A stretch of 64,000 bases of DNA, from NCBI GenBank assembly GCA_025786725.1, contig JAHLTZ010000053.1, positions 43,383 to 107,382 of the forward strand, read 5' to 3'. The position numbers and the translations under genes are program-made. The stretch is from Syncephalis fuscata. Taxonomy: Eukaryota; Zoopagomycota; Zoopagomycetes; Zoopagales; Piptocephalidaceae. Positions 1 to 64,000 of this stretch are shown piece after piece. Positions within the stretch are counted from its first letter, which is position 1; each line of letters opens with the position of its first letter. The notes under the pieces were generated by a model that ran no database searches, had not been told where the DNA came from, and saw nothing but the letters and a program-made list of their open reading frames with translations.

Positions 1-1399
1 ATTAACTGCTATTTACTGATTGTACCAATTGTTTAATATTAATAGCTGGTAAGTAGTATTATATAACAATGAACTATAAATTAATCACATTTTATTGATT
101 GATTGACCGATTATTCAATACTAATAGGCTGTAAGTAGTATTATATATTAATTAACCATGCATTAACTAAGCTATTTATTGATAATATTAATTATTTAAT
201 ATTAATAGTGGGTAAGTATTATTGTATTTTAATTAACTATACATTAACTATACTAATTACTAATAATATTAACTATTTAATATTAATAGATTGTAAGTGA
301 TATTATATATTAATTGATTATTTACCAATCGTATATGATGTACTATGCGCGTCAACAACTCAATATAATAGGGGGTAAGTGATATTGTATATTAATTATG
401 TTATTTACCAACTGTACTGATTATTTGATACTAATAGGCAGTAAGTAGTATTATATATTAATTAACTATGCATTAAATATGTTATTTACTGATTACACCA
501 ACTATTTAATATTAATAGAATGTAAGTTTTATTGTATATTAGTTAACTATACATTAACTCTGATATTAACTGATTATACCGATTATTTATATTAATAGGT
601 CGTAAGTGGTATTGTGTATTAATTAACTATAGATTAACTGATATTTACTGGTTGTACCAAATACTTAATATTAATAGGAAGTAAGTTATATTGCGTACTA
701 GCTAACTATATATTAACTGCTATTTACTACTTGTACCAATTATTTAATATCAATAGATGGTAAGTGGTATTGTGTAGTAACTAACTATGCATTAACTATT
801 ATATTTACTAATTGTGCCAACTATTTAATATTAATAGGCAGTAAGTAGCACTGTATATTGACTAATTACTCACTAATCACATGCTATTTACTGATTGTAC
901 CAATTATTTAATATTAATAGGCTGTAAGTGGTATTGTATATTAACTGCCTATATATTAACTGCTATTTATTGACTGTACCAATTATTTAATATTAATAGG
1001 CAGTAAGTGGTATTGTGTAGTAACTGACTATATATTAACTATTATATTTACTGATTGTGCCAATTATTTAATATTAATAGGAAGTAAGTTGTACTGTGTA
1101 TTAACTGACTATATATTAACTTCTATTTACTGATTGTATCAATTGTTTAATATTAATAGCGAGTAAGTTGTATCGTGTATTAACTGACTATATATTAACT
1201 GCTATTTACTGATTGTGTCAATTGTTTAATATTAATAGTTTGTAAGTAATATTCTATATTAATTGACTATAAACTAATCACATGTTATTCACTATATATA
1301 TCAATAACTTAATAATAATAGGCTGTAAGTAGCATTATATATTGATGGCTTATGCATTAATTATATGTCATGTAATATCTTTATTTGTAAATACAGGAT
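1..1399 (+). CDS. 3' part of a micro-exon gene: seventeen consecutive 3-nt exons
   Basis: I read this as the downstream half of a spliced gene whose internal exons are each exactly one triplet. Each unit is acceptor (TTAATATTAATAG), NNN, then donor GTAAGT. Micro-exons lie at 46-48, 128-130, 209-211, 290-292, 372-374, 438-440, 519-521, 599-601, 678-680, 757-759, 838-840, 921-923, 1000-1002, 1081-1083, 1160-1162, 1239-1241 and 1322-1324. The last exon starts at 1397 after ATACAG. In phase 1, the phase fixed by the related gene at 63306, the joined codons contain no stop until TGA formed across 1324/1397-1398. The tail then has the pattern C-x4-C-x3-C-stop, so a small cysteine-containing secreted peptide is inferred. 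A second frame (phase 0) is also open, to a TGA near 1493. The 5' exons lie outside the window. Splicing is not shown by DNA alone. Confidence 0.6.
49..1396 (+). repeat. tandem array of paralogous introns, about 80 bp period
   Basis: The introns between the micro-exons resemble one another along their whole length: GTAAGT, then TATTGTATATTAA, then ATATTAACTGCTATTTACTGATTG, then CCAATTATTTAATATTAATAG (pieces, with variants). Start-to-start spacing is 79-83 bp, except one unit of 66 bp (372 to 438). Similarity outside the splice signals indicates duplication of an intron plus 3-nt exon unit rather than independent gain. Confidence 0.85.
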
Positions 1400-3057
1400 A
1401 ATCGATGGTCTCAAGACATTAGCATTGGTAGTGCAATCAAGCCACTATTCCAATACACTTTAGGTATATATTCGGTGAAAAGCAAGACCATTTGACAATT
1501 ACGCCGTCCAGTCCACCTATATATCAAGTTTTGGCTAATGCTCCGGTTTACCCAGTCTTTAACCAATGGAATCATTATGTTACCAACAAGCTTGCAATCA
1601 GTTGTCTCTATTCAACTTTGCAAGCTTATAGTAATAAACCTATGGTTTCATCTTAACTATATACAATCAAATTGCTATATCTATAACCATGTTTTATTTA
1701 CATTCGATAATTAACAACTATTAATCAAATAGTTAAATTAACAAAATGTATATGATCATATCACCTAAGCTATAGGCATAGATTGGTATGAATAGTAGCA
1801 AAGCTATCATTATCATATAGCCAAATAATAGTATGCTGAAACTAGAATAAAAACGCTTTTTTAATAGAACATGGCAATAAAGCATAGGATATTATAATAC
1901 AAAATAAATAGACAAATCAAATACGTGAATAGTGATAGTGAAACTATACTGTATGCAATTGGCCAAGAGTAATGAACTAAATGAATCAAAATCTGCTAAA
2001 AGAATACAGTTAGCAATGAGCTTTTAGCCTTTGTTAGTATAATTTTTACAATTTACAATATTAATGGTATAGATGGTCATATAGTACAAATACACAGGAT
2101 AGATATGCACAGTACAATAATAATGATAAATAAATAGCTTAATAATCAATGACACTCAACAGCCAGTTTCATTTTCAATAAAGCGGATATTTTGTTTAAA
2201 TGTGTGGCTATTATAGCTATTTAACTGCCAAGTCACATCAAACAACCAATAGTGTGCTTAATATTATCAAAAAAGTTATTTTATTTAGTTAATAAAAATA
2301 TTATAAGATTCAATACAAATCAAGTGGTTTAAATGATCCGTCACAGCACCCTTTTAAGCTTTTTTTGCCATGTTCCATGACTTTTTTAAATTGGAACATT
2401 GGAGCGATTACTGCGACATTTAAAAGTAGATGTTACGAGTAGATTGTTATAGTTTATCAATGACAAATGCCATGTTGACGGTTTTATTTTGCATATCTTT
2501 ACTCTTGCTTGATAAACCAACTAATTAATTTAAGTTGATCAAAGCAATAACACTTTTATGTAATTTATAATTATTTAATTGCTAAATCTGATATTTGAAA
2601 TGCTCTAAATAAGCCAATCTAATCTTATTTGTTGGTTATTTTTTTGCTTGCATTAAAATTTATTTATTTATTTTAATGTTTGTTTCATTAGTTGTTTGTT
2701 TTTATTTTTCAATAAAGACATTTATTTTAACATTAACTACTATGCCAACATTATTATTCTAATTTTTACAGAGCATGTTTTTTATTGTATTTTTTGAGTT
2801 GCATTTGCTACAATTAACTAAACTATGTAAATAAACAAAGTTTTAAATTAAAATTCGTTGCATTTATTGTAATTGGCTTTTTCAAATTTTCTCTATTTTA
2901 CTTTGACGCTCATATTTTGAGCCCTTAAAGCAAAACTCATTCCAATTGAAGTCGCACTGCTATACATAACAATTATATTGTTTTTTATTAAATATTGTTA
3001 ATAAATTGATTTAAATAAGCAATACAATATAGTATTTGATTTCTTTGAAATGTTTGA
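1400..3057. other. 3' UTR of the micro-exon gene, then AT-rich spacer
   Basis: The first part, to about 1690, is probably the 3' untranslated region of the micro-exon gene; AATAAA occurs at 1633-1638. From about 1700 to 3057 the DNA is very AT-rich with long T and A runs. I see no convincing coding exon, RNA gene or repeat family in it. Confidence 0.5.
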
Positions 3058-3666
3058 GGCCGATTATTATTGTTGTTGGCTATGTGTAGAAAAATTGATT
3101 GGATATTAATAAAAGTCATATAATTGATTTTATATCGTTTCATAGTTGTTATTGCTGTTACTATGTACAGTGTGGTTTATTGCGTTTAAATGGTCTCTTC
3201 TATTTTCCAATCTTCTACTGTCGCATTTGGGGAGATTTGCAATGTGAGATACTCGTCTATGGTGACAAAAAGGTAGGACGACTAACGTTTCTAATGTTCA
3301 CTACTCTCTTGAACATCCTTGGTATTAACTTGATAGACGGAGTTTATTTACCAATCATTGATAAAGCAAATCGACCTCCACCATATGCAATAATAATAGG
3401 TTGAGTGTTTTCACTAGAAAGATATTGTGGTGACAGTTGTAACCAGAATATACGGCATGCCGTTGAGGTTACTTGAACAGATGTTGATGTAAATAAGAGA
3501 AATAAATACTAGTGATTGAATATGTTATTTATTGATGTTTATATATACATGCTATTTATATTGTTATATTTAACATTATCACATAATATATTAATGAGTA
3601 AAACAATAGGATAGCAATAGGAAAAGGAAATGAAATAAGTAAATAAAAATGTGGGAATCAAAGTAC
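3058..3666 (+). repeat. duplicated segment, copy 1 (partner at 60866-61464)
   Basis: Direct-orientation duplicate of the segment near 60.9-61.5 kb. It contains a short open frame ending in TGA at 3402-3404 (last residues PPPYAIIIG), matching the ORF of copy 2 in frame. In this copy the codon equivalent to the ATG of copy 2 is ATA (about 3132), so it lacks that start and may be a decayed copy. The 250 bp after the stop are almost identical between copies, while the coding part carries roughly twenty differences, about half of them silent. No known family was recognised. Confidence 0.75.
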
Positions 3667-4319
3667 AATAGCTTCTTAGTGTTAAATAATTTATTAGTAG
3701 ACCCATATGATTCAGTGTCAAAAGACTAAAATTGACATATTTAATTGAACTACGCATTTGTTATTCTACTAAACATGGAACTAGGTGGTGAGTTATATTA
3801 AATATCAAAATTATAATGCTTTGAGTACTTCAAAGCAATAATATAAATTAACATTTATTTATACTATTATTTATCTATTTATTATATTTTATTGCTAGTA
3901 ACATGAAGTAATATTTAAAACTTACTTCGATATTGAAAATAGTACGGAGTTGACATAGCGCCACTTCAACAAATAATAATTTTAATATCAAAAACTGATT
4001 GATGATCTATTGTTTAATTTATTAATCTTCTTTATCCCTCAGTTTGAGGCTAAGTGGCATAAAGTAAAATAGCTTTTGGAAGATAAAAAGGGCAAAATAT
4101 GAATATCGTCATTATTGGTAATGGGTGGGAGTCTGAGTTGTCGGATTACGATGAAATTAACCGAATAGATGATACGATCAGTAATGATAGTAATAGTAAT
4201 AATAGTTAGTAATAGTGATATAATGATAATATGTAGTGGTACAATTTGACTTTTGTCACCGACCAGCGCTTCTCTTTTTCTTTTGCGGCTTTCCTTGGTT
4301 CTTTCTTTTTGATATAATT
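3667..4319. other. intergenic, upstream of IDH2
   Basis: AT-rich spacer leading into IDH2. The last 100 bases before the ATG include a pyrimidine-rich stretch typical of a 5' leader. No further element recognised. Confidence 0.4.
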
Positions 4320-31896: not shown

Positions 31897-32791
31897 AAGA
31901 CAATGTTAAATACATTAAATGCAATTGCCTAAATAAAAACTCCGCTCATTTATGTATACCTATTTGTAAGAATGTAAATAATAAGCAATAGCAATAAAAA
32001 TGTACATATTAAACATTAAATTGAATAATATTTGCTATTTATTATTTGTAATAAGGTATATATGTGTTTGGTGGGTAAAATACAAGTTATACTAATCTAA
32101 ATTTGGTACAAATATATACATTACAGTCAAGCACTTGTGACTATTTTTACATTATAGGAATGTATTACTTTTGTGGTGTACGTGTGCATGTTCAGAATAT
32201 TTCTTTATTGCAATTATTTTATGGAGCTACTGTACTTTGACTCCCACATTTTTATTTATCCATTTCACCCCTCAACACTTTAAATACAATTAAATATTTA
32301 CTTATCACTATAACATGTATAATATTACATTCAACATTAGTTAATTCATGTGTAATTATCAATACAATAATGTAATTAAATATGCCCAAAATGCACTACT
32401 AGAAAATTAGAAAATAAAACAGACCATTCAAACGCAAGAATTCACATTGTATGTAGTAACAACAACAACAAATGCAGAATAGCATGGATTGCGATCATAT
32501 GGCTTTTATTAATATTCGATCAATCTTGCTACATATGGCCAGCAACAACAACAATAATTGGTCTCAAATGTTTCAATGAAATCAAGTAGTATGTTACATT
32601 ATTTATTTAAGTCATTTCATTAACAATATTTTAATAGGAAGTAATATAGCTATGTTGTGCATAATGGCATGACTCTGATTGAAACGAATTGTGCTTTGGG
32701 GACAGATGTAGGAGTCAAAGTACAGTTCAACCTATTTTATAACTAAATACGTTACAATATTATACTAACAATCATACTATTTATTCATTTT
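31897..32791. other. intergenic
   Basis: 0.9 kb of AT-rich DNA between two minus-strand genes. It must contain the promoter and possibly a first exon of the double-E2 gene. Nothing else recognised. Confidence 0.4.
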
Positions 32792-34070: not shown

Positions 34071-37920
<3,850 letters not shown>

Positions 37921-53863: not shown

Positions 53864-56635
53864 ATGTTGCTGTAGCTCTGCTTTTGATGCTGGTCATCAA
53901 TAGTATGAACCATGCCGCTGCGTCTTTGCAGCCCAGCTCTACTCTACCAGAGCACACACTTGTTTCTCGCGCCAACCAAGCTGCGCCAGAAAAATCCAAC
54001 ACCACCGTGCTAATGACACATCACCAGACATGACATCTTATTTGCTTATTTTAGCTGCAAATCCTGGCACCAAAGAGGCCCGTGACCAGCAAGATGGTTT
54101 AGTAACATTTTTGCAAAAAAATCTAAAGGCTCACGTGAGACAAAAATTTGATACTCTCTTAAATGGTATCTCAATCGATGTTGAGGACACATTTGCAATA
54201 TTTCATGGACTACAAAGTCTACCAACTATCAAAAATGTCGAACGTATAGTAGGATCATCGCTTATGGCACCACGGCCTGATTTTATTGGTGATTATTCTA
54301 CGTTAAATGCGCCTCAAGAAAACGATGCTGGTCTTAGTTCCAATATCGACCGTGACGGCGGCAATGGAATTAAAATAGGAATAATTGATTCCGGCATCGA
54401 TTATCACCATATTGCACTTGGTGGCTGTTTCGGAGAAGGCTGCAAGATTGGCTACGGCTATGATTTTGTTGGCGACAATTTCAACGGCCTTAACACACCA
54501 ATGCCCGACAATGATCCGATGGACGAGTGTAACGGACATGGCACCCATGTTGCTGGAATCATTGGAGCAGTTTCTGAGATCAAGGTTGGCATTGCTCCAC
54601 GAGCAACCTTGGGGCATACCGTGTTATGGGCTGTGGCAATGCCACCGTCAATGATATTGTCATTAAAGGAATGGAGAGAGCCTATGCCGACCATATGGAC
54701 ATTGTCAATTTATCATTGGCCACGCTAAAGTACTACACTGATACGGCCATCTCTCAGGCTGCCCAACAGCTTGTTAGTCTTGGTGTGGTGGTAGTAGCGG
54801 CCGCTGGCAATGACGGAAATATTGGTCTTTTTTCGTTAGCTAGTCCAGGAACAGCACCTGGTGTAATTACCGTTGCTGCAGCTGATCCCCAAAATCCTGG
54901 ATTATTTACTTTTATGGTCAATATTACAGATCGACCAGTGCGCTACATGACGACAACAAAGTCAGTGATGCCTGCTTTAGGCACAGCACAAGAGGTGGCC
55001 ATGGTTGAAAAAGAGAGCTGGGACAAATGCCAGACTTTGAAAAAGCAATATAAAAATCAGTTTATTCTTATGAAACGAGGTGCCTGTGACTTTATAACCA
55101 TGGGCCGCAATGCTCAGCAAGCTGGTGCGTCAGGTGTTATAGTACTGAATACCACGCCTCAAGTCGAAATACCCAATCTGGACAGCAGCATTAAAATACC
55201 CGTCCTAATGGTGGTTAAAGAAGACGGCCCTATTATTGAGGCGGAAATGAAGGCGGCAGGAGATAAACCAACCTTTTACATTCGTTGGGAGCAGAGAGGT
55301 AGGAAAGAAGTCAAGTCCAACAACTGGCTATGGTCGAAATTTTCTTCCTGTGGCCCCATCTCCGATTTTACCAATGTTAAGCCGGATCTATCGGCCAATG
55401 GTGATAGCGTTTATAGTATCTATCCACGCAAACTTGGTAATTACGCCGTGTATACAGGTACTAGCATGGCTGCACCATTTGTTTCCGGTCTAGCTGCGGT
55501 GGCATTACAGCGAATGGGTACTAGTGTTAAACTTGCTGATCGACCTGCTGAGGTACGGCGAATGCTTGTTCAAACTGCCGATTTACTTCCAATGACCCAG
55601 AAGATTGGATCGACTAATGAGACATTTATTAGTCCAGTAATAATGACGGGTGTTGGTGTGGTGCGTGGCAGTGCTACTCGTGAGCCCAACTGGGGCATAT
55701 CGCCATCTTCAATTGCTTTTGTTGGAGCTCAAGCTGGTACGACGGATGCAGTGCGCAAGTTTGACATTAGTTTGATAGGCCCAATGCCAGCTGGTACAGT
55801 TACTTTTCGACACCGGCCTGCAGTAGGCAGGCTTGTTGAACCGGTGCAAGTCCAAAGTAATACATCGCCACTGCTGGATGTTGGCACCTTTTTGGCCAAA
55901 CCAAGCTCAGTTACGATTGAATCTGCTGGTGGTGGCAAAACTGCAACACAAAAGATATCAATAACCATTGGAGCAACTGCCCCTTCGCCCAACTCACAAG
56001 TTTGGATTTTATCTGGTGTAATTGAAGCTGTGCACAAAGATTCAGCCGGTAAGATAACAATACGTCGTATTCCTTACCAAACCACTTTGGGCTCAGTTCA
56101 ATCACTTAAGCCAATTCGTGTCTCTTCCAAGTTTCCGTTAGTCAAATCGACCGGTAATTTTTCTCAGCCAACTGTCACACCTAGTCCGTTTTCACTAGTT
56201 AATCTTTCCTATCAATTGGATTATCCAACAACTAATGTATTTGCTATTGTTGAGGATGCAAGTACAGGAAAGCAACTAGGAATAGCTGAGGGTGTTGGCG
56301 GACACCATGAGTATTCTACCATGGTTAATAGTGATTATTTTCTTTCGTCATGGGCCGGCCTAATTCGCCCAATGACTTCGTTTGGAGTTTCTGGTCCAAC
56401 TCCATCACCTTTACCCGATGGCAGCTATCGATTGAAACTATTTGCTTTACGTATGTTTTCAGATATTTCTAGTGAAAAATCGTACGACTCCTGGACATCA
56501 CCTTCAATCAATGTGGTAGGAGTTGCTGCTGCTGCTGCTGCTGCATCCGTCAATCGAGCCCAGCCTAATAGTACTGATAATACCACTACTTCTTTATCTT
56601 CTTCAGATGGTGCTACCCCAACACCAACTAAATAA
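53864..56635 (+). CDS. secreted subtilisin-like serine protease (S8) with PA domain
   Basis: Intronless, about 925 aa. A signal peptide (LLLMLVINSMNHAAA region) follows ATG 53864 if one base is added near 53873. Then an I9-like propeptide (SYLLILAANPGTKEARDQQD) and the S8 catalytic domain: Asp in IGIIDSGIDYHH (54387-54389), His in NGHGTHVAG (54546-54548), Ser in GTSMAAPFVSG (55463-55465). A PA domain is inserted before the Ser (MKRGACDFITMGRNAQQAGA). A Fn3-like C-terminal region ends in a Ser/Thr-rich tail. The layout resembles Vpr-type fungal extracellular proteases. Further single added bases are needed near 54028 and in the G run at 54610-54613. All three breaks are 'one missing'. The catalytic triad is intact. 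Confidence 0.9.
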
Positions 56636-59282: not shown

Positions 59283-60415
59283 TGCATTAATTATCTTTGT
59301 TATTTTGGATTAGCGCAATACATCAAACTACAATTAGATAACATTTTTATAAATCATTATGTGTTTATGGTGACTAGCCTTAGTAGAACGCTATACGAAT
59401 ATATTAAAACAGTATACTACAATAAACAGCATTTCAAAAGTCACTTTTGTATCATTCATATGTTATATGTCAATGTAAGTTGCTTTCAAATGTATTGTCT
59501 TGCATGTCTAGAATAACACAATTATAATTCTTGATTATTGGTTTATCAATACAACATGTTTGACCATTAACATTATAGCTATTTAATTTAATAGTGTCTA
59601 TATATATATGAGTAACATATATATTTGCAAAATGTATACACAATTCTGATGTTAGCGGTTTTCCAATGCTGATTTTAAAAATGCTATATATACAAAAAAT
59701 TAAAGTACTATTTATTTTACTAATATAATATTATAAACTGTAATGGAACGACATACTGCAGCTACTAGTGATTCTACTGCTGATATGTCTATGTCTATTC
59801 CATATGTTCCAGTAGTTATAAAATATTCTATCGTTTTCCTACAATAAGCAATGTACAATTATACCAATATTACACTATAGATCAGTATTCATATTATGAT
59901 ATTAAATCATACTTGCCATGATAAAACGTGCTAGCAAACACAAATATGATACATACCAACACCTAGTGGTATATCAAGCCAGATCACATAGTTCAACCTG
60001 CTTTATATATTGTTTTATTTAGTCATTTTAAATTAGTAATTAAACCATATTACTTGAATTTTGTTTAGCAATATATATCTACCATTGACTTGGCTAAGGA
60101 AACTACGTACAACCTTTTGTGTTATTATTAAAGAAATTTGCTTTATTTGATTTAAACCAAATAGTACGTTTACTACCTATTTCATATTATCAAACGATGT
60201 TATTGTTACAATTTTAATCATCTTACAAATTATTCTAACACATATTACACATCCAAAAAGTACTCACTATAACATTATAAGTTATCGGCGTCCATAATTA
60301 CGTGTATTTCTACCTTAGTATTAAAATATAAATGAAGCAATTTTCCATTAATTAGATAAAAAATAATGTTACACCAATATAATCACGTGACTTATAAAGT
60401 GATTTGAGCTAAAAT
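59283..60415. other. intergenic, AT-rich
   Basis: Spacer between the 7TM gene and tRNA-Val. A 35-codon ATG frame near 59742 is too short to support. Nothing else recognised. Confidence 0.35.
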
Positions 60416-60488
60416 GTTTTCGCCCGGATTCGAACCGGGGACCGTCTGTGTGTTAGACAGACGTGATAACCGACTACACCACGAAAAC
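60416..60488 (-). tRNA. tRNA-Val (anticodon AAC)
   Basis: On the minus strand the 73 bases fold as a full cloverleaf. The acceptor stem GTTTTCG/CGAAAAC pairs over 7 bp, the anticodon arm is TCTGT-CTAACAC-ACAGA, and the T arm has CCCGGTTCGAATCCGGG. The anticodon AAC reads Val codon GTT. There is no intron. A run of A on the minus-strand 3' side and T on the plus strand (60417-60420) belongs to the stem; A/T-rich DNA follows. Confidence 0.97.
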
Positions 60489-60865
60489 ACCACAAAATTT
60501 TATGGCAAAATTTATTATCTGTTTCAAAAGTCAAAATTGCAAAAAAAAAGAAAAATTAAAAATAGTTATATTGAATATACGACAAGCTATGTTTTATATA
60601 CGTACTCAAACATCATTTATTGGTTGCTATTTACTTTGCAATTCCCCATTCAGCACAATAAATTATCTTACGCAATTCATTGTAATGAGTTGATTAAATT
60701 AAATTGTGTTTAAATCGCCATTCACAATAAATATTAACGCAATATTATTATTTATTATTATTTCCATAAGTTGATTAAATGTAACAGAAAAATTGTATTA
60801 GTAACTGCTATTTTAAACAGTTAAATAAAAAATGTAACATAATATTTAATTTGATTAAAACATTT

Positions 60866-61464
60866 AAGGTTGATCATTGTTGTTGCTGGTTATGTATAGA
60901 AATATTGATAGAAGCCATTGATTGCGACTCCATGTCGTTCCACAGTTGTTGTTGTTACTACGTACAGTGTGATTTCTTGCGTCTGAATGGTCTCTTCTAT
61001 TTTCCAATCTTCTACTGCCGCATTTGGGGAAATTTGCAATGTGAGATACTCGTTTATGGTGACAAAAAGGTAGGACGACTAGCGTTTCTGATGTTCACTA
61101 CTCTCTTGAACATCCTTGGTATCAACTTGGTAGGCGCAGATTATTTGCCAATTATTGATGAAGCAAATCGACCTCCACCATATGCAATAATAATAGGTTG
61201 AGTGTTTTCACTAGAAAGATATTGTGGTGACAGTTGTAACCAGAATATACGGCATGCCGTTGAGGTTACTTGAACAGATGTTGATGTAAATAAGAGAAAT
61301 AAATACTAGTGATTGAATATGTTATTTATTGATGTTTATATATACATGCTATTTATATTGTTATATTTAACATTATCACATAATATATTAATGAGTAAAA
61401 CAATAAGATAGCAATAGGAAAAGGAAATGAAATAAGTAAATAAAAATGTGAGAGTCAAAGTAAA
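60866..61464 (+). repeat. duplicated segment, copy 2 (partner at 3058-3666)
   Basis: Direct duplicate of the segment at 3.1-3.7 kb. Divergence is highest at the 5' end and nearly absent in the last 250 bp. Includes the small ORF listed next. Confidence 0.8.
60932..61201 (+). CDS. small hypothetical protein of the duplicated segment
   Basis: 89 codons from ATG 60932: a Cys/Tyr-rich start (SFHSCCCYYVQCDFLRLNG), then YFPIFYCRIWGNLQCEILVYG and an end of PPPYAIIIG. About half of the differences from copy 1 are silent and the one length difference is a whole codon, which hints at coding constraint. No family recognised. It could also be the open part of a mobile or repeated element. Confidence 0.4.
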   Translation: MSFHSCCCYYVQCDFLRLNGLFYFPIFYCRIWGNLQCEILVYGDKKVGRLAFLMFTTLLNILGINLVGADYLPIIDEANRPPPYAIIIG

Positions 61465-63162
61465 ATGATTTGATCATATAAATATTACGCGCTCAATTCA
61501 ATATTTTGTTTTATTTTAATATATAGCTATACAACTTTTATTAATGCTCAATAAATAAAAATAATCTGTTTTTCTATTATTGCAATAATGTATAATATAA
61601 GCTGCTTACTCTAATAACTAGTTAGATTAAGCCTTGTAATAGTTGGCTTAATTGATGGTCGTGTACATGTGAGTATTTAAGAAGTTACAATGTGATTGGG
61701 AATATTTATTCATACAAACAACTAGAAGTATAAATTGTAGTGACAATGTCAAGTTATTTAACTACTAAACTTGTTAATTCAATTTTATTTATATCTCTCT
61801 GTTTTCTGTGCGTTATCTCAGTTTAACGCTGCTGCTGTTCTAGTCGCATCAGCAACAGCCAACTTTTGCTAAGTATAGTTCAACTTAGCATAGCTATAAT
61901 GTTTTGCTATAGATTAAACCAGTAAGCCTGTGAGCTTTCAATTGCTTTCCATTGGTTTCTGCTCTGACTTGTTCTTCTATATTCTATTTTGTTTGACTTG
62001 TCAGAAGTGGTTTTAAAAATGTGGACAGCACTTAGGCCTTGGATGATTACCGGTTTATATGCAATCCATAGCCATTATGCGCTCGAAATTGCTGATATTT
62101 GGGTAGAAATTTCCATTGTGTCTAGTCTAGTGTCTGCATATGGTATTGCGTGTAGTTTAGCCGATGTAGTTTAGTTTGCAACTGAAAACTGATAAAAATG
62201 ACTTGTTGGAATGTTCCGCTGTTCAAAATACTGTGATGCATTACCCTACAAATAGTACTTATTGTATAATCGATTCCAGGTGTTTTAGATTAGTTGCCAT
62301 TTGAATGCTGATAGTTGCACAATATATGTCATGATATGCCTGGATGTGATGCATTTGTGAATTCAAAACAATAATTACCCCTGTAACAATGGGCATCGTG
62401 TCGAATAAAATGCATACATGTACCAATCAACACGCTCTATAATTTAAAAGATTATGAGTGACTTATGCATGGCAGTAAAAACCTGTATAAATACCAGTTC
62501 AATACATCAAGCTTGTTTTTGTATTAATGTTGCGTGTTATTTTGTATGCATGCAGATATTGGAGACCGAGCCATTAAGTGGAAATGACAGTAAAGACATC
62601 ACTATCGTTTTCACAAAGCCAAACAATATACTTGTTTTCACCAAATAGCTAGGTCGTGTAACAAAAATACCGGCTAATATACCTATCTCTATTGCATATT
62701 AACTGAATTATTAGCGTTGTTACATCATTCGTGCGAATAACTGGTAGATTGAAGTAAAGTCCGAATAGATTATGCGTTATTTTGTATGGATGCAAATATT
62801 GAGGATCGAGTCATTCAGTAGAAGCAACAGGAGACATTATTACCGTTTTTACAAAGCCAAACAATATGCTTGTTTTTGCCAAATAGTTAAACCGTGTAAT
62901 AAAAAATACAGGATAAGGTGCATGTCTCTATCGCATATGTGCTGTTCATTGGAATTGCCGCGTCATTTGTGTAAATGCCGAGCAGGTTGAAACCAAGATT
63001 GGGCATGTTGAAACCAAGACTGGGAAGCATGCTGTCACGCCATGAATCTACTGGTACACGCGCACCTCAAAGTATTATTTGGATTGCTTTATTGGTTCAT
63101 ATTACACATCAATGGTATATCTCGTATACTGCAGCATACTAGCATCTCAACATAGCCATAAG
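61465..63162. other. spacer before the right-hand micro-exon gene
   Basis: Mixed AT-rich sequence. A 45-codon ATG frame ending at 62174 has no recognisable features. The region includes a degenerate tandem repeat (62534-62990). No firm gene. Confidence 0.35.
62534..62990 (+). repeat. degenerate tandem repeat, offset about 240 bp
   Basis: The sequence from 62534 (TGTTATTTTGTATGCATGCA) recurs from about 62774 (GTTATTTTGTATGGATGCAA). Shared blocks include ACAAAGCCAAACAATAT and CTTGTTTT followed by CCAAATAG. Roughly 75% identical by eye over 190 bp. Confidence 0.7.
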
Positions 63163-63305: not shown

Positions 63306-64000
63306 ATGAAGCTTTCTATTGCCGTCGTTTGCACCATTGTCGTTGCGCTTGTGGCCGTTACAACCATGGTGGATGCTAAACCAGCTTTAGTTCGTCGTGG
63401 TATGTTGCAATAACAATAAATATAACAGCATTTGTTTATTAACAGTATTTCTAAATAATAATTACAATAGATCGTAAGTTATATTGTATGTTAACTATTT
63501 ACCCACTACTTATATACCATGTACTGTGTTTATAAACAACTAAATATCAATAGCTAGTAGGTTGCATTATATATTAATAGAACATACACTAATTATGTGT
63601 TATATTCTGTATCTATCAACAACTTAATATTAGTTCAATGCAAGTTGTATTGTATATTAATTTATTACTCACTAATTGCATGTTATGCGCCATGTGTACC
63701 AACAACGTAATACTAATAGGCGGTAAGTAATATTGTATATTGATGGCTTATAAATTAATTATATACCATGTATTGTGTATATCAACAATTTAATATTAAT
63801 AGCTGGTAAGTCGTACTGTATATTAACTTACTATGCGCTAATTGTATACTATGCACCGTGTATATCAATAACAATACTAATAGCATGTAAGTTGTATTGT
63901 ATATTAGTTGAGCATTATTTAACTATATATTGTGTATTATATGTATCAATAACTTGATAATAATAGGCGGTAAGTAGCAATATATATTGCTGACTTATAA
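63306..64000 (+). CDS. 5' part of a micro-exon gene encoding a secreted peptide
   Basis: Exon 1 is 63306-63399: MKLSIAVVCTIVVALVAV, then TTMVDA (signal peptide, cleavage likely after DA) and KPALVRR, ending in phase 1 before donor GTATGT at 63400. The next exons are tiny: 63471-63473, 63554-63556, 63634-63639 (6 nt, donor GCAAGT), 63720-63722, 63803-63805, 63884-63886, 63967-63969; the gene then runs off the window. Introns are 77-83 nt with acceptors such as TACTAATAG. All internal exons are multiples of three, so phase 1 is kept and no stop appears; two TGC codons (C-x2-C) form across junctions. The first acceptor could also be one of two upstream AACAG sites. Dibasic RR just before the array could be a processing site. 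Confidence 0.7.
63474..64000 (+). repeat. tandem array of paralogous introns, right end
   Basis: Same type of unit as at 1-1400: GTAAGT, TATTGTATATTAA and (TATT/TACT)AATAG recur with spacing 80-86 bp. The similarity between the two arrays (62 kb apart) is clear in the donor and acceptor blocks. Confidence 0.85.

Follow-up and report, generated by a model that had tools for sequence, protein, structure and literature searches.

Mature peptides of a Syncephalis fuscata gene family predicted to be encoded in runs of three-base micro-exons

The micro-exon genes (MEGs) of schistosomes and the bicycle genes of aphids are the closest known architectures to the one reported here. The coding sequence of MEGs is described as lying mostly in very small symmetrical exons that are alternatively spliced, and the genes as evolving fast and giving products that are secreted or gland-associated, at the parasite-host interface (PMC4350168). 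The bicycle genes are described as encoding putative secreted effectors from many micro-exons, almost all of phase 2, and as often escaping sequence search; one of them, megacycle, encodes its roughly 2,000 residues in over 100 micro-exons (PMC9168663). Single tiny exons have also been reported, among them the 1-nt exon of Fusarium CYP621A (PMC12940212) and, in the accounts given in PMC12940212, PMC7392893 and PMC11121469, the 1-nt exon of Arabidopsis APC11, the 3-nt exon of Drosophila homothorax and the micro-exon of Trichoderma Xlr2. These cases, with one micro-exon per gene as described in those accounts, show that spliceosomes include exons down to 1 nt, in fungi too.

The DNA studied here is from Syncephalis fuscata (Zoopagales), a member of a genus described as mycoparasitic (PMC10386755). 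It holds a protein-coding gene whose mature peptide is predicted to lie almost wholly in about 31 consecutive 3-nt micro-exons (one of them 6 nt), a reading that depends on modelled splicing and to which we assign a probability of about 0.93. An exon of only 3 nt is considered difficult for a spliceosome to handle, and the known cases are isolated; in S. fuscata about 30 would stand in a row per gene, and 2,716 exact units occur in the genome. As in MEGs, coding sequence would be carried mostly by very small symmetrical exons (3 or 6 nt in 460 of 467 modelled internal exons). MEG exons measure several to tens of nucleotides, whereas the internal exons here are nearly all exactly 3 nt, run uninterrupted for about 30 units, and belong to a tandem-repeat array that has intron-free twins and resides in a fungal genome. 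With the bicycle genes the family shares many micro-exons of nearly uniform phase and putative secreted products; unlike the longer bicycle exons, its exons amount to one codon each, in phase 1, between very short introns of one repeat family. Common descent with MEGs is unsupported: an alignment of eight intron-free members, in a protein search that reaches only relatives with shared short words, matched 13 proteins at E ≤ 1, all of S. fuscata, and a second protein search likewise returned S. fuscata proteins only. No report of micro-exons in Syncephalis was found in the literature as searched by title and start of abstract, with preprints and most subscription journals outside its scope.

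Anatomy of the micro-exon genes

The window, that is, the whole 64,000-nucleotide stretch analysed, corresponds to C249:43383-107382 of the 28.95 Mb assembly. An earlier note on this DNA had claimed 17 acceptor-NNN-GTAAGT units near its start, and all 17 are present as AG-NNN-GTAAGT between 46 and 1330, at the unit-to-unit distances that it gave (79-83 bp, one of 66). Its statement that the triplet differs each time was wrong, as the 17 units carry only 12 different triplets, with GCA and GCT occurring three times each and GAA twice. Searching the window for AATANTAATAGNNNGTAAGT with up to 3 mismatches yielded 31 matches, 17 of them the array units, where 2.8 were expected, and a count of 31 was reached in none of 100 shuffles. 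The run is also not confined to 1-1399, as had been supposed. It extends upstream to a leader exon at C249:42121, 1.26 kb before the window starts, so that the 17 units form the 3' half of a gene (gene 1) whose 31 micro-exons include a single one of 6 nt, the other 30 measuring 3 nt.

The part of the gene 1 array inside the window, 17 of the 31 micro-exons with their introns, occupies 1..1396 of the plus strand. Its micro-exons are CTG (46..48), GCT (128..130), TGG (209..211), ATT (290..292), GGG (372..374), GCA (438..440), AAT (519..521), GTC (599..601), GAA (678..680), ATG (757..759), GCA (838..840), GCT (921..923), GCA (1000..1002), GAA (1081..1083), CGA (1160..1162), TTT (1239..1241) and finally GCT (1322..1324). 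The leader exon measures 97 nt, encodes MKLSIAVVCTIVVALVAVTAMVDAKPALVRRG, which is signal-peptide-like and ends in RR, and closes in phase 1. All introns of gene 1 are in phase 1; each codon is therefore split across two micro-exons, and a micro-exon of three bases finishes one codon with its first two and opens the following codon with its third. The idea that every exon adds one codon's worth of peptide consequently stands for the 3-nt length and fails for the whole codon. Spliced in silico, gene 1 gives a product with six cysteines that ends in GDPAQCAACVENCKRRTGLDWGKCRNGSCRTIC, its mature part. The TGA stop is itself divided by the last intron, its first base being the T of the last micro-exon and its GA opening the terminal exon (1397..1725, plus strand; acceptor TTTGTAAATACAG), which continues into the 3' UTR; the end at 1725 marks the approximately 329 bases used in comparison with intron-free paralogs and is not a mapped UTR end.

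A second gene of the same family (gene 2) starts at 63306 on the plus strand and is cut by the contig end. Its leader exon (63306..63399, donor GTATGT) codes for MKLSIAVVCTIVVALVAVTTMVDAKPALVRR, a signal-peptide-like leader with a short propeptide that ends in RR, and supplies one further base. Seven micro-exons are visible, ATC (63471..63473), CTA (63554..63556, donor GTAGGT), the six-base TTCAAT (63634..63639, donor GCAAGT), GCG (63720..63722), CTG (63803..63805), CAT (63884..63886) and GCG (63967..63969), the last of which lies 31 bases short of the contig end, and these are the first seven micro-exons of locus L039 in sequence and order. Near both family genes of the window lies a repeat (2900-3900 and 60821-61466, 89% identity over 661 bases), found also near L041, L044, L045, L049, L050, L052, L056 and L058 and weakly at 32385-32648. 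As it recurs near family genes, these seem to be placed in larger duplicated blocks. A tRNA-Val (AAC) gene is found close to it, at 60414-60489 on the minus strand.

Splicing was modelled for 15 genes fetched in full, using a dynamic-programming chain that is anchored at both ends, on the leader donor and on the terminal acceptor, and places an equal prior on exon lengths of 1-15; the set contains four near-duplicate pairs (L040/L041, L044/L045, L046/L057 and L052/L053). In every one of the 15, the leader exon closes in phase 1. Among the 467 internal exons, 442 measure 3 nt and 18 measure 6 nt, which leaves 7 of some other length; 476 of the 482 introns do not exceed 100 nt, the median being 78. 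At least one exon that is not a multiple of 3 was obtained in L039, L041, L052, L053 and L054, so that the frames of four of these genes depend on a prior favouring 3 and 6, under which 14 of the 15 genes are wholly in frame. Six cysteines follow the leader in 11 of these 14, eight in L054 (49 micro-exons), four in L051 and two in the short L056 (6 micro-exons). The remaining gene, L039, retains a 2-nt unit whichever prior is used and is thereafter out of the six-cysteine frame. A model with a stricter acceptor was dropped since it left introns of about 160 nt, and those of 110-350 nt that were inspected hid at least one weaker micro-exon. Micro-exons reading TGA occur in L044, L045 and L051; they would be stops if read as codons and are harmless in phase 1.

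The micro-exon introns look like ordinary introns of S. fuscata with stronger donors, judging from two ordinary introns of a neighbouring gene (36609-36685, 77 nt, and 36857-36910, 54 nt, ending by eye in TTAATAATAG and ACTAATAG), the first open reading frame of which has a UCH domain. In the mechanism that we propose, the leader exon would supply a signal peptide and a short propeptide ending in RR, and the spliceosome would have to remove phase 1 introns of about 78 nt by intron definition, with the help of strong GTAAGT donors and of a compact acceptor, TTAATATTAATAG, whose AG is immediately preceded by a branch-site-like TTAAT. The product would be a secreted six-cysteine peptide. Some 30 tiny exons spliced in strict order, in each of maybe a hundred or so genes by extrapolation, would be an apparent fungal feat, and the arrays of S. 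fuscata would offer a natural test bed for intron definition, minimum exon size and splicing order.

Order-dependent coding, constrained splice sites and intron-free paralogs

Coding was examined in the 10 of the 15 genes whose chains consist only of multiples of 3. Read in phase 1, their 308 codons contain 0 stops and 54 cysteines, against 3 stops and 1 cysteine in phase 0 and 38 stops and 14 cysteines in phase 2. The absence of stops is weak evidence in itself, and was rejected as such, because triplets taken from introns of the repeat can do as well when the best frame is chosen, with 0-1 stops at 5 offsets; shuffles of exon order were used instead. Across 10,000 within-gene shuffles the mean was 21.3 stops (minimum 10) and 25.4 cysteines (maximum 41), and for the 7 non-redundant genes, with 0 stops and 40 cysteines in the real order, the corresponding values were 15.2 (minimum 6) and 18.3 (maximum 31). 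A reading that is both stop-free and cysteine-rich was thus obtained only with the spliced order in phase 1, beyond all 10,000 shuffles. A comparable order effect was absent from intronic triplets taken at 13 offsets in the 7 genes, where the strongest effect was the mild order dependence of one frame at offset -35, whose value for stops was reached in 31 of 1,000 shuffles and that for cysteines in 10.

The splice sites are conserved to a degree that the rest of the array is not. In the four close paralog pairs, with splice sites, introns and exons labelled from the uniform-prior chains, splice-site differences number 0 in 625 acceptor bases and 2 in 749 donor bases, where the intron-interior rate (299 of 8,994 bases, 3.3%) would predict approximately 46 splice-site changes; micro-exon bases differ at 15 of 392 positions (3.8%). 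Likewise, in the distant pair L040/L039 only 1 of 155 and 2 of 185 splice-site bases differ, compared with 281 of 2,096 in introns and 42 of 95 in micro-exons, the last figure not being taken as a substitution rate because later units of this pair appear partly non-homologous. The splice sites are thus strongly constrained, while the exonic triplets are free to vary.

Many matches to the leader run straight into a cysteine-rich reading frame without introns, and these intron-free paralogs, with the same leader and similar cysteine-rich peptides, agree with the spliced models in several respects. At the 3' end they align colinearly with the terminal exon of gene 1, homology starting from base 2 or 3 of that exon in 11 of 17 genes of the cysteine type and in 12 of 23 intron-free loci. 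The in silico product of L054 agrees with the intron-free L067 along CTYSECMEKCKTYC. Over 42 nt of DNA, 38 bases are identical and the 4 differences are all synonymous; in L054 these 42 nt are 14 micro-exons cut by 13 introns, identical under both priors. All six cysteines and the terminal ANP of the intron-free L059 recur in L052 and L053, and the three loci group together by leader and 3' end with a support of 0.995 (0.87 by the 3' end alone). More generally, exon order was shuffled 300 times per gene. In 11 of the 15 genes no shuffle came up to the similarity that the real spliced product shows to the intron-free set, L051, one of the 11, exceeding its best shuffle by a single point; that similarity was reached by 2 shuffles in L039, 5 in L042, 3 in L058 and 61 in L056. 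The intron-free twins would in this respect serve as a built-in record of spliced products. In combination, the order- and phase-dependent coding, the conserved splice sites, the intron-free paralogs with the same type of peptide and one GenBank protein that fits (see below) support the proposal of the earlier note that a fungal gene here encodes a secreted, cysteine-containing peptide in exons of 3 nt.

The same note had pointed out that skipping any unit keeps the frame, which is correct since the introns share phase 1, and an architecture serving combinatorial alternative splicing, in which skips among about 31 same-phase exons give many variants per locus, could be imagined on that ground. 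The introns are also similar to one another, and the small symmetrical exons of MEGs are described as alternatively spliced (PMC4350168). We nevertheless regard this purpose as unlikely: skips would often drop a cysteine of the scaffold, the uniformly strong and conserved splice sites favour constitutive use, and complete products are recorded by the intron-free paralogs. Because the latter keep full-length cysteine-rich products, complete in-order inclusion of the micro-exons is suggested as at least a main product.

Proposed turnover of the array and size of the family

The array can be read as a minisatellite-like tandem repeat, each unit of which consists of an intron and three bases of exon. 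A unit gained, lost or exchanged would add, remove or swap one codon and leave the frame intact, and turnover of this kind may act as a peptide diversifier. The first and last introns of gene 1 best match the first and last introns of the other genes in 8 of 8 cases. Its introns 0-9 match those of L046 position by position, other genes being less regular; for introns 10-29 the matches in L046 are shifted in position, as most are in the other genes. L044 and L045, whose intron interiors are 2.5% different, carry 35 and 32 micro-exons, a difference of three whole units. Our reading is that tandem-unit turnover in the middle of the array would edit the loop and the C-terminal half of the peptide in whole codons, and such turnover suggests codon-by-codon evolution of short disulfide peptides.

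The intron-free paralogs would be best explained by intron loss via a spliced-mRNA intermediate. Homology to a micro-exon locus extends upstream for at least 1.5 kb or so at about 80% identity in 4 of 8 intron-free loci, this length being the limit of the sequence compared, for approximately 500-660 bases in three others and for 88 bases in one. Origin as a plain retrocopy is unlikely for the loci with such upstream homology, on the basis of which gene conversion by cDNA is proposed instead. Movement of cassettes between loci is possible, since L067 and L054 have the mature peptide in common yet fall apart in the grouping by leader and 3' end.

The opposite direction, in which an introner-like element was inserted repeatedly three bases apart into ancestral intron-free genes, appears less likely still than a role in combinatorial splicing. 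The introns do resemble each other (best within-gene identity, medians of 0.83-0.89 in 9 genes), and intron-free members exist in divergent subfamilies. Introner elements, however, are near-identical introns dispersed in many unrelated genes, whereas each of the 100 matches listed, out of 2,716 to the unit pattern, lies in a cluster of at least 4. An exact 3-base spacing at about 30 sites is moreover hard to achieve by insertion and natural by tandem unit duplication, L044 and L045 differ by whole units, and precise removal of 49 introns in one step by cDNA is simpler than gaining them. As an overall account we lean, by a little more than even odds, towards the intron plus 3-nt unit being a codon-sized recombination cassette: unequal exchange would edit the six-cysteine peptide codon by codon, mRNA-based intron loss would sometimes freeze a product, and codon-skipped isoforms may also arise. 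We know of no gene architecture like such codon-per-repeat peptide diversification.

A genome-wide search for NNN-GTAAGT units, as suggested in the earlier note, returned 2,716 exact matches to TAATAG-N3-GTAAGT, with 5 for the reversed-pattern control. The corresponding counts were 26 for N2 (control 36), 14 for N4 (control 20) and 15 for N6 (control 7). Since the exact pattern fits 316 of the 444 modelled 3-nt exons of the 15 genes (71%), extrapolation leads to approximately 3,800 three-base exons, or roughly 120 genes at about 31 each; if the cassette account is true, this would amount to a peptide diversification system of that extrapolated size within one 29 Mb genome. Exact leader-donor junctions number 63 genome-wide, at least one of which (L083) has no array in its first 560 bases, and exact terminal acceptors number 46. 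The hydrophobic N-terminal leader peptide itself has at least 150 scored genomic matches among 314 candidates, at 65-100% identity, part of them without arrays. Two divergent subfamilies, L085 and L090, by eye mix 3-nt exons with longer small exons of approximately 9 to 33 nt and are possibly intermediates in array evolution.

A non-coding satellite, untranscribed or contained in one large intron, its triplets outside the mRNA or acting as stepping stones of recursive splicing, would be in keeping with the tandem repeat structure, with several GenBank models that join the leader exon to something else and with the stepwise removal of large introns for which recursive splice sites are a known route, yet it is very improbable, given that the absence of stops and the cysteine enrichment depend on order and phase, that the splice sites are constrained, that intron-free paralogs encode the same peptide (38 of 42 bases, only synonymous differences, across 13 introns) and that N3 exceeds N2, N4 or N6 more than 100-fold where stepping stones need no exact 3. 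A ratchet point of recursive splicing is a zero-length exon, AG|GT, of which nothing is kept in the mRNA; here, unlike there, three bases stand between AG and GT and behave as coding.

The predicted peptides and their annotation

Under the preferred reading, namely a protein-coding gene with its mature peptide in micro-exons, the family would probably act outside the cell. Many of its peptides have a cysteine spacing near Cx2Cx3C...C...C...C, and the RR ahead of the mature part may be a Kex2-like processing site. A Pfam scan of 8 proteins, the gene 1 peptide and 6 intron-free members among them, gave no family that reaches its cut-off. The gene 1 peptide scored 21.7 bits against the scorpion short toxin family PF00451 (curated cut-off 25.1), and PF00451 was not matched at E ≤ 1 by the other 7 of the 8 proteins, the 6 intron-free members included; this and the other matches below cut-off (TIL, Fer4_10 and others) were not accepted as membership. 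A profile of the intron-free members searched against PDB sequences gave one match, to an alpha scorpion toxin, at a non-significant E of 0.65. The CS-alpha-beta signature, as in PF00451, is CxxxC ... GxC ... CxC. Like CS-alpha-beta peptides such as defensins and scorpion short toxins, the gene 1 peptide has six cysteines, a CxxxC step and a GKC-like step (GKC); unlike them, it scores below the PF00451 cut-off and its last step is CxxxC instead of CxC. There are thus hints of a CS-alpha-beta-like scaffold, for which the CxC feature fails. The genes likely represent a diversifying family of secreted defensin-like peptides, the role of which would probably be to act on host fungi or competing microbes.

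Existing annotation was compared for six GenBank proteins. BDF19DRAFT_453770 (P0007), mapped to L069 with the fewest introns, yields the leader, CCA, AAG and a read-through exon, in other words two consecutive 3-nt exons after which the third intron is read through. On this protein-to-locus fit, two consecutive 3-nt exons appear to be already within a public gene model. P0002 and P0006 join the leader to a longer open reading frame in the array, P0011 maps as the leader followed by stretches of 74 and 6 nt, while no fit to their loci was obtained for P0003 and P0010. Runs of about 30 three-base exons are absent from the public gene models checked, an illustration of how an expanded family of secreted peptides can escape annotation.

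The same leader also precedes very different mature peptides (L082, L084, L086, L081, L035 and L071), among them a His/Lys-rich one that contains KR and a CC-rich one; shared by several peptide classes, it looks like a general secretion leader. Elsewhere in the window, at 54030-56635, a subtilisin-like protease spans two overlapping open reading frames, the second with Peptidase_S8 and PA domains, which are probably one gene with an intron.
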